A DNA stretch of 38,450 nt from an uncultured bacterium (GTDB lineage: Bacteria > Patescibacteriota > Minisyncoccia > Moranbacterales > UBA2206). The stretch spans positions 1 to 38,450 of the forward strand of contig CAIMLT010000027.1 in assembly GCA_903842445.1 (NCBI GenBank), in the 5' to 3' direction. Below the pieces are notes generated by a model. That model ran no database searches. It had not been told where the DNA came from and saw only the letters and a program-made list of their open reading frames with translations. The position numbers were made by a program, and so were the translations under genes. Below, one piece after another: positions 6,170 to 31,112 of the stretch. Position 1 is the first letter of the stretch; each line of letters opens with the position of its first letter.

Positions 6170-6316
6170 CTAGCGACGAGGTTTTTTTCTAACTACCACC
6201 CAGCCTCTCCCTCGACAGGAGAGACAACCCTTGCCTCCGCACTTAGCGCATTCGCGCGCATGCGGTTTCCTCATGGATTCACCACCAAGAGGACTTTCTT
6301 TTTTTTCCTTCCGCAT
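6170..6316 (-). CDS. 48-aa DnaJ-like zinc-ribbon protein
   Basis: Hand translation of the minus strand gives a 48-aa protein with an uninterrupted frame from ATG 6316 to TAG 6170-6172. It contains CAKCGGKGCLSCRGRGW at residues ~24-40: two CxxC pairs with the CxGxG spacing of the DnaJ central zinc-binding repeat. This single repeat should bind one zinc. The flanks are basic (RKPHAR before, VVVRKKPRR after), suggesting RNA, DNA or membrane-surface binding. A strong Shine-Dalgarno site (AAGGAGGGGG) precedes the ATG by 5 bases. It lies 35 bases after the 101-aa gene and just before the terminator, so it ends the secD-secF operon. The function is unknown; a DnaJ-like cofactor role is only a guess. 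Confidence 0.8.
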   Translation of the reverse strand: MRKEKKESPLGGESMRKPHARECAKCGGKGCLSCRGRGWVVVRKKPRR

Positions 6317-6321
6317 TTCTT

Positions 6322-6332
6322 CCCCCTCCTTT
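6322..6332 (-). promoter_or_regulatory. Strong Shine-Dalgarno of the 48-aa gene
   Basis: The minus-strand sequence AAAGGAGGGGG lies 5 bases before the ATG at 6316. It is one of only three GGAGG-type ribosome binding sites I can find in the window, and it decides the start codon of this short gene. Confidence 0.8.
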
Positions 6333-6351
6333 TTTAAATATCCAACCTATC

Positions 6352-14092: not shown

Positions 14093-14317
14093 TCAATGAA
14101 TGTATATTTCAATTTTTTCACCTGATAGCACCGGCTCAATCGCCTTGAGCAATTTTTTTTGTAAGCCATCCGAAGAAAGTCGATTAGGATCATTTGCTTG
14201 ACGAGCAATCTCACTTTTCAACTCTGGACTTTGTAAGAGTTGCATAATCAAACTTTTAGTTCCATTTGCTCCGGAAATGACTACCCAGCAGATTTCGCGT
14301 GTAATATGGATTATCAT
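14093..14317 (-). CDS. Uncharacterised 74-aa protein
   Basis: I do not recognise this family. It begins with a short hydrophobic stretch (MIIHITREICWVVISGANGTKSLIM) and then has a helical, polar region (LLQSPELKSEIARQANDPNRLSSDGLQKKLLKAIEPVLSGEKIEIYIH). No zinc, nucleotide-binding or clear membrane motif is visible. The strong Shine-Dalgarno GGGAGGG lies 5 bases before the ATG, and the gene is followed immediately by a strong terminator. It therefore forms a single-gene transcription unit or a tail of the mini-ORF unit upstream. Gene status rests on this framing signal, not on homology. Confidence 0.7.
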   Translation of the reverse strand: MIIHITREICWVVISGANGTKSLIMQLLQSPELKSEIARQANDPNRLSSDGLQKKLLKAIEPVLSGEKIEIYIH

Positions 14318-14322
14318 TTTTA

Positions 14323-14329
14323 CCCTCCC
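14323..14329 (-). promoter_or_regulatory. Strong Shine-Dalgarno of the 74-aa gene
   Basis: The minus-strand sequence GGGAGGG lies 5 bases before the ATG at 14317. It supports translation of this orphan gene and is one of only three such sites in the window. Confidence 0.75.
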
Positions 14330-29929: not shown

Positions 29930-30382
29930 CTATTTCCCCAACTCCTCCTCAGCCAATTTCTTAACGAGATTGCCGTCAGCTTGGCCTTTCAGTTTTCCCA
30001 TGGCTAGACCCATTACTTTCCCAATGTCAGCCATTCCAGTGGCGCCAACTTGGACAATCACCGCCTTCACGGTTTCACGCACAGTCGCCTCGTCAAGTTG
30101 GGCAGGAAGATAGGCTGCAAGAATTGCAATTTCTTGATTTTCTTTTTCCACGAGATCTTGCCGCCCTCCTGTTGCGTATTGCGCTGAGGCATCTTTTCTT
30201 TGTTTCACTGCTTTTCCAATCACTTCCAACACTTCTTCATCAGAAAGACCTGTTTCGCGTTTTTGCTTTTCGATTTCAACATTTTTCACCATCGAGTCAA
30301 GCATGCGAAGCGTATCTCTCTTTGCAGTATCCCCGGCTTTCATCGCCACTTTCAGATCATCAAGTATTGTTTGTTTTAACAT
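29930..30382 (-). CDS. YqeY-like (GatB/YqeY domain) protein
   Basis: A 150-aa protein matching the YqeY family, which shares the tRNA-binding tail domain of GatB. Recognisable parts are the start MLKQTILDDLKVAMKAGDTAKRDTLRML and the end TGMADIGKVMGLAMGKLKGQADGNLVKKL. The exact biochemical role is not known; the domain is linked to tRNA-dependent amidation or tRNA binding. It follows rpsU by 13 bases, a gene pair that is common in bacteria. No Shine-Dalgarno is visible. Confidence 0.93.
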   Translation of the reverse strand: MLKQTILDDLKVAMKAGDTAKRDTLRMLDSMVKNVEIEKQKRETGLSDEEVLEVIGKAVKQRKDASAQYATGGRQDLVEKENQEIAILAAYLPAQLDEATVRETVKAVIVQVGATGMADIGKVMGLAMGKLKGQADGNLVKKLAEEELGK

Positions 30383-30395
30383 AAATTTTATAAAA

Positions 30396-30650
30396 TTATT
30401 TGATCAATTTCTTTTTGACATTTTTGAAGTTTTGATCATCAAATTTTCCCATTTTTTTGAGCTTGTTCACAACTTTGCGAACTTTAACTTTATACATCGC
30501 ACCAGCACGAAGCTCTCTTTTGCTTTTTTCATCCTGTCGAAAACGAACTTTCCGCGCACGCATCAAAACTCCACTCTGTTGAATGCGACGACTAAAACGC
30601 CTAATTAGGCTTTCTGGCGATTCGCGTTCCTTCTTTTTTACTTCGATCAT
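30396..30650 (-). CDS. rpsU: Ribosomal protein bS21
   Basis: Small-subunit protein near the 3' end of 16S rRNA (84 aa, slightly longer than the usual ~70). It starts MIEVKKKERESPESLIRRFSRRIQQSGVL and continues with basic helices (RARKVRFRQDEKSKRELRAG). The C-terminal ~25 residues (VNKLKKMGKFDDQNFKNVKKK) extend beyond the usual end. It has a perfect AAGGAGGT ribosome binding site 5 bases before the ATG, unlike nearly all its neighbours. This matters because bS21 sits next to the anti-Shine-Dalgarno. A TTGACA -35 lies at 30698-30703, but the matching -10 is weak. Confidence 0.95.
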   Translation of the reverse strand: MIEVKKKERESPESLIRRFSRRIQQSGVLMRARKVRFRQDEKSKRELRAGAMYKVKVRKVVNKLKKMGKFDDQNFKNVKKKLIK

Positions 30651-30655
30651 AATAA

Positions 30656-30663
30656 ACCTCCTT
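30656..30663 (-). promoter_or_regulatory. Perfect Shine-Dalgarno of rpsU
   Basis: AAGGAGGT on the minus strand lies 5 bases before the rpsU ATG. It is exceptional in this window, where most genes have no recognisable ribosome binding site. Confidence 0.85.
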
Positions 30664-30705
30664 TCTTGTTTTAATAAAAAATTACAAAACTAGAAATTGT
30701 CAATC

Positions 30706-31062
30706 TTAACAATCTGCCCAGGGACGAATATTCTCATAAAGTCGAACTCCACCGAGAAGATGCATATGCAGATGCGAAACCTCTTGTCCACCCCATTCTC
30801 CGACCCGAGTTAATAGTTTATACCCTTTTGGCGAAATGTCAAAGTCAATGGCAATTTTCTTAGCAACCAAAACCATCCTGCCAGCTAGTTCAACGTCCTT
30901 CTCGCCCAGATCATTCATGCTCTCAATATGTCTTTTTGGAATAATCAGAATATGCACTGGAGCAAGTGGTCGCACATCCTTGAAGGCTAAAATATCCTCA
31001 TCCTCATAAACAACCCCCGCGGATATTTCTTTTTTGATAATTTTGCAAAATATGCATTCCAT
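30706..31062 (-). CDS. HIT-family nucleotide hydrolase
   Basis: Histidine-triad protein that hydrolyses nucleoside phosphoramidates or similar (118 aa from the chosen start). It opens with MECIFCKIIKKEISAGVVYEDE and ends with the catalytic triad HLHMHLLGG; the GGQEVSHLHMH layout is like HinT. The cysteine pair CxxC at the start fits a zinc site. I chose ATG 31062. A longer start at 31080 would add MADEEN, but those codons overlap a palindromic repeat (31074-31112). It follows hisS by ~66 bases and precedes rpsU by 55. Confidence 0.93.
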   Translation of the reverse strand: MECIFCKIIKKEISAGVVYEDEDILAFKDVRPLAPVHILIIPKRHIESMNDLGEKDVELAGRMVLVAKKIAIDFDISPKGYKLLTRVGEWGGQEVSHLHMHLLGGVRLYENIRPWADC

Positions 31063-31073
31063 ATTTTCTTCGT

Positions 31074-31112
31074 CCGCCATAGTCCGCCCCGGGCGGACGA
31101 AGGAGGATCTGA
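31074..31112 (-). repeat. Palindromic repeat at the 5' end of the HIT gene
   Basis: On the plus strand CCGCC-ATAGTCCGCCCCGGGCGG-ACGAAGGAG contains the perfect palindrome GTCCGCCCGGGGCGGAC-type core (GTCCGCC...GGCGGAC). It ends in the same CGAAGGAG as the valS and pheT elements. It supplies an alternative ATG and five codons (MADEEN) in frame with the HIT gene. Confidence 0.6.

Follow-up and report, generated by a model that had tools for sequence, protein, structure and literature searches.

A conserved extended Shine-Dalgarno sequence at rpsU in the Moranbacterales and its possible role in feedback control by bS21

Why does rpsU, the gene for ribosomal protein bS21, carry an extended Shine-Dalgarno (SD) sequence in a genome where SDs are rare, and could this place the gene under the control of its own product? 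The question is raised by a stretch of 38,450 nucleotides (referred to here as the window), which is contig C27 of a metagenome-assembled genome (MAG) of Candidatus Moraniibacteriota (Patescibacteria). The MAG comprises 979 kb in 102 contigs, and its nearest named relatives are Candidatus Moraniibacteriota / Moranbacteria. The original prediction, made from the window, was that hardly any gene has an SD apart from rpsU and two small orphan genes, that rpsU may keep a strong SD for the reason it does in Bacteroidetes, where bS21 helps hide the anti-SD, and that bS21 levels may regulate rpsU together with the two orphans.

The rpsU gene (30396..30650, minus strand) codes for 84 residues. The predicted protein matches Pfam Ribosomal_S21 (PF01165) only below threshold (16.3 bits for a cut-off of 27, E 0.008); an order-level profile matches PDB bS21 chains with E values of 2e-5 to 5e-5, and an orthologue is present as a single copy per genome in 35 of 37 relatives. 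Judged by the order profile, the orthologues and an AlphaFold model, the product is probably a diverged bS21. The structural modelling envisaged with the original prediction yields four helices at fair confidence (mean pLDDT 81), with Tyr53 in a predicted third helix (residues 44–67) that is followed by a C-terminal helix (residues 72–83). The yqeY gene (GatB/YqeY family; 29930..30382, minus strand; Pfam YqeY, 1e-47) lies 13 nt downstream of rpsU and lacks an SD (-0.7 kcal/mol), and a HIT-family (HinT-like) gene (30706..31080, minus strand; Pfam HIT, 1.6e-24) lies upstream and has no GGAGG-type SD. Directly upstream of the HIT gene start is a GC-rich perfect palindrome (near GTCCGCCCCGGGCGGAC, 31082–31098), which occurs once in a 380-kb sample of the genome.

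A simple ORF rule supplied the gene starts, which were scored by their pairing energy with the 16S tail, and positions too far 5′ of a start to serve as an SD were used as mock sites. The scoring is validated by E. coli, in which ribosomal-protein, tuf, nusG, rpoA and secY genes average -7.8 kcal/mol against -4.0 kcal/mol for mock sites. Thirty-six starts were scored in the window. The rpsU start is preceded by AGAAAGGAGGT (30656..30666, minus strand), located 5 nt (TTATT) ahead of the ATG, which is a perfect 11-nt complement of the 16S 3′ tail ACCUCCUUUCU and scores -18.2 kcal/mol. As the strongest mock site reaches -10.1 kcal/mol, rpsU alone is well clear of chance within the window. The predicted distribution of SDs in the window was correct in its particulars: the only other GGAGG-type sites are those of the orphan genes of 48 and 74 codons, an HTH (HTH/sigma-like) gene carries AAAGGA (-5.8 kcal/mol), and nusG, rplK, rplA, pheT, parB and pth have no SD (+1.1 to -1.6 kcal/mol).

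The 48-aa orphan (6170..6316, minus strand) has AAAAAAGGAGGGGG at 6322–6335, which at -12.7 kcal/mol is marginal relative to mock sites. Its product resembles a detached DnaJ-type zinc finger with CxxCxGxG repeats and is lineage-specific, there is no orthologue in the genus, and matches in relatives are DnaJ zinc fingers only; the lack of a genus orthologue led us to reject it as a conserved co-regulated gene. The 74-aa gene (14093..14317, minus strand) has a moderate SD, GGGAGGG, at 14323–14329 (-10.7 kcal/mol, near chance). Diverged homologues in two congeners (37–39% identity) both keep an SD (-11.6 and -9.3 kcal/mol), and this gene may therefore belong to the extended-SD set described below.

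Genome-scale counts were taken from 380 kb of the 979-kb MAG (307 genes) and supplemented by genome-wide pattern searches. The predicted rarity of SDs is evident in this sample, with 23 genes at or below -7 kcal/mol versus 42 mock sites, and most other sampled genomes of the order are similar. G004 is an exception, and the genome-wide counts for the GC-rich member G030, where the ORF rule yields many false ORFs, are uninformative. Across genomes of the order, 86 ribosomal-protein, tuf, nusG, rpoA and secY genes average -3.0 kcal/mol against -4.3 kcal/mol for mock sites, with a minimum of -7.7 kcal/mol. We compared rpsU with about 27 other ribosomal-protein genes plus rpsR, and rpsU is the only one found with an extended SD. 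Since none of the other translation genes tested falls below -7.7 kcal/mol and rpsR lacks an SD in nearly all of 30 relatives, rpsU is an exception among them; it was rightly predicted to be among the few keepers of a strong SD, and is the sole ribosomal-protein gene found to do so in every order member examined. Autoregulation of rpsR (bS18) through an SD, as in some Bacteroidia, was considered and rejected, because no rpsR SD is present in 30 relatives save at one uncertain start (-9.2 kcal/mol). Nor do SDs mark high expression among translation genes, given that EF-Tu, L7/L12 and the other tested ribosomal-protein genes have none.

The rpsU SD is a real, order-wide element. We assembled 110 rpsU loci with 81 distinct leaders from 30 relatives and 80 named genomes of the order (with some overlap), and all 110 have an extended SD at or below -13 kcal/mol, with a median of -18.3 kcal/mol compared to near -3.5 kcal/mol for mock windows. 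The complement to the 16S tail spans 10–12 bp. Leader columns facing C1543, C1539, C1538, C1536 and C1535 of the tail have G in 80–81 of the 81 leaders, and those facing a tail U have A or a wobble G in 74–81 of the 81, the share of G rising to a fifth. The element is thus conserved as a pairing and not as a string of letters, a pattern that indicates selection on the RNA helix, and the pairing columns imply that mature 16S rRNA extends to base 1543–1544 or beyond. Outside the 11-nt helix, which is kept, the leader is unconserved within the order. Folding of the leader leaves the SD about half unpaired, with no hint that a strong hairpin masks it. Every 16S gene of the order that could be read contains ATCACCTCCTTTCTA and ends in ...ATCACCTCCTTTCTAGGGAG, including those of two congeners (L003 and L010); the anti-SD ACCUCCUUUCUA, with the intact CCUCC on which the original prediction depended, is present in congeners and throughout the order. 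The source MAG itself has no 16S contig, a common situation in MAGs.

The claim that rpsU and the two orphans are nearly alone in having SDs holds for the window but not for the genome, in which HU (-22.9 kcal/mol), a VirB2-like pilin (-16.8 kcal/mol) and several small genes also have strong sites. AAGGAGG occurs 3–12 nt before an ATG at 25 sites in the source genome, versus 11 for the reversed pattern, and about ten of the 25 resemble true starts, among them rpsU, HU, the VirB2-like pilin and small genes. In 37 relatives there are about 109 GAAAGGAGGT-ATG sites and about 13 of the reversed pattern, and extended-SD sites are enriched throughout the class. Recurrent products are HU, type IV pilins (PilA), VirB2/TrbC-like pilins, Hsp20, mechanosensitive-channel proteins, Lys-rich histone-like proteins and GlsB/SPW/DUF378 small membrane proteins. 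The HU site is present in 29 of 29 relatives and is conserved as strictly as that of rpsU, and the HU, pilin, Hsp20 and mechanosensitive-channel SDs, mostly GGAGGTG, equal or exceed it in strength. The lineage therefore has a small set of extended-SD genes of which rpsU is the sole ribosomal-protein member found, and its conserved companions, HU, pilins, Hsp20 and mechanosensitive channels, lie outside the window and are not the two orphans originally proposed. Many of the recurrent strong-SD genes of the relatives encode surface or stress proteins. One extended SD of -23 kcal/mol (L134, position 938; G000:C61:920-941) precedes the ATG of an ORF of a mere seven codons, possibly a leader peptide, or else the SD serves another start.

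The rpsU SD differs from the others in its register. A G that would pair with C1533 after GGAGGT is found at none of the 110 rpsU loci of the order (1 of 81 leaders in the register fit), whereas HU has it at 29 of 29 sites, and the remaining extended-SD genes at 71 of 90. The GGT-only register of rpsU is almost confined to the order among the rpsU genes compared, as 26 of 28 from other Patescibacteria classes have the GGTG register.

A second feature of the order lies in bS21. Tyr53 is invariant in all 110 proteins and is located in the third helix, two residues past an Ala that is likewise invariant, just as Tyr54 of Flavobacterium johnsoniae follows Ala52 (PDB 7jil; ...KAAY54IQ in F. johnsoniae, ...GAMY53KV in the order). 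By this alignment we take Tyr53 to be the counterpart of Tyr54, with an uncertainty of one residue in register, since anchoring on the loop that precedes helix 3 places the two tyrosines one residue apart. In F. johnsoniae Tyr54 stacks on A1534 and directs the 16S tail into a pocket of the platform (PMC9976891). We infer that the missing G at rpsU is linked to Tyr53 at A1534, the neighbour of C1533, and avoidance of C1533 may keep rpsU translation dependent on the absence of bS21. Position 53 is Arg or Lys in other Patescibacteria classes, with Tyr in 0 of 28, and in the class's other orders 2 of 18 bS21 proteins carry the Tyr and 1 of 18 rpsU genes a strong SD; the Tyr is thus found with the GGT-only extended SD across the order and hardly elsewhere in the phylum. 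The two Tyr-containing proteins from other orders (L391 and L398) belong to genomes without an rpsU SD, and are counter-examples to a strict link.

We consider it reasonably probable, by analogy with the Flavobacterium system, that the extended SD places rpsU under feedback control by bS21. In complete ribosomes bS21, aided by Tyr53, would pin the 16S tail to the 30S platform, leaving the anti-SD largely unavailable, and most genes would initiate without it. A 30S subunit lacking bS21, either new or damaged, would have a free tail that binds the rpsU leader strongly, and bS21 would be made until the shortage is over. The HU, pilin, Hsp20 and channel SDs would either pair with this free tail as well or bind tightly enough to dislodge a tail that is held, and rpsU alone skips the pairing with C1533, possibly leaving its translation reliant on the absence of bS21. 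Several points argue against such autoregulation: HU and pilin genes have SDs that equal or surpass that of rpsU, two bS21 proteins of other orders have the Tyr where rpsU has no SD, most rpsU genes of other classes have a strong SD where bS21 has no Tyr, and the register of Tyr53 is uncertain by one residue.

The main rival, which we regard as possible though somewhat unlikely, is that a strong SD is a mere booster for a few highly expressed and mostly single-gene messages (bS21, HU, pilins, Hsp20), with a free anti-SD and no feedback from bS21. It accommodates the extended SDs shared by HU (29 of 29), PilA, VirB2-like pilins and Hsp20, as well as the other classes, in which a strong rpsU SD occurs without the Tyr and the sampled genomes otherwise make moderate use of SDs. 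However, EF-Tu, L7/L12 and all the other tested ribosomal-protein genes are highly expressed yet have no SD, most genes are SD-depleted rather than neutral, and a booster leaves unexplained why G faces C1533 so consistently at HU and most other extended-SD sites and never at rpsU.

A second alternative is that the rpsU SD is an ancestral Patescibacteria feature not yet lost and without present regulatory meaning. That 26 of 28 rpsU genes of other classes have a strong SD, although their bS21 lacks the Tyr, does indicate that the SD itself may be ancestral, but its persistence as a relic is improbable: in the other orders of the class it has largely disappeared (present in 1 of 18 and absent in 17 of 18; L388-L405), the leader around it has turned over within the order while the 11-nt helix stayed, and the order has GGT plus a non-G in place of GGTG. 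A chance match of a purine-rich, AT-rich leader, the range in which both window orphans nearly fall, is refuted for rpsU by 81 distinct leaders that all reach -13 kcal/mol when 2 of 80 mock windows do, and by the roughly 109 to 13 excess of GAAAGGAGGT-ATG over its reversal in the 37 relatives.

Feedback control by bS21 can be extended to a more speculative proposal, which we hold to be doubtful as a whole: that bS21 occupancy of the 30S subunit could be an order-wide switch. Complete ribosomes would read the SD-less housekeeping genes, and those lacking bS21 would read the extended-SD set (rpsU, HU, type IV and VirB2-like pilins, Hsp20 and mechanosensitive channels), with rpsU, its SD cut short at A1534, alone being strictly bS21-sensitive, and with the Tyr and extended rpsU SD being convergent with Bacteroidia. 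The register rule, by which G opposite C1533 is never found at rpsU and always at HU, constitutes a precise prediction on the freeing of the 16S tail. The phylum also presents a natural experiment, with three groups that differ in SD and Tyr.

Ribosomes specialised through bS21 are among the clearest examples of heterogeneity in bacterial ribosomes, and a published survey reports them from Bacteroidota and Chlorobia alone (PMC9976891). In F. johnsoniae bS21, bS18 and bS6 hold the 16S tail, and ribosomes lacking bS21 translate the extended-SD rpsU faster, which creates a feedback loop; rpsU autoregulation has been demonstrated in this species, and sequence comparison has led to its inference throughout Bacteroidota and Chlorobia (PMC9976891). 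Searches of the literature on Patescibacteria/CPR SDs and on Moranbacteria translation initiation gave no report of bS21 autoregulation for Patescibacteria. The system described here is likely a known kind of regulation in a new phylum, and the same pairing of features with the same Tyr in Patescibacteria points to convergence.

In common with the Bacteroidota and Chlorobia, the order combines an SD-poor genome, an intact anti-SD and an rpsU SD that is below -13 kcal/mol and the strongest among the ribosomal-protein genes tested, and, as in Bacteroidia, the third helix of bS21 has a Tyr at the Tyr54 position. It differs in belonging to an unrelated phylum, in excluding the base opposite C1533 from the rpsU SD, and in having a bS21 with a longer C-terminus (84 aa versus 64). 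Having rpsU as the sole strong-SD gene is typical of Flavobacteriales and not of all Bacteroidia, and Chlorobia are without a Tyr54-type residue (PMC9976891); unlike in Flavobacteriales, rpsU in this order shares strong SDs with HU, pilins, Hsp20 and channels. Other Patescibacteria classes share the strong rpsU SD (26 of 28) but differ by the GGTG register (26 of 28) and by having no Tyr53 (0 of 28). Long SD–anti-SD helices are also common to Staphylococcus aureus, where they are described as general (PMC13009471), whereas here they are restricted to about ten of ~1000 genes.
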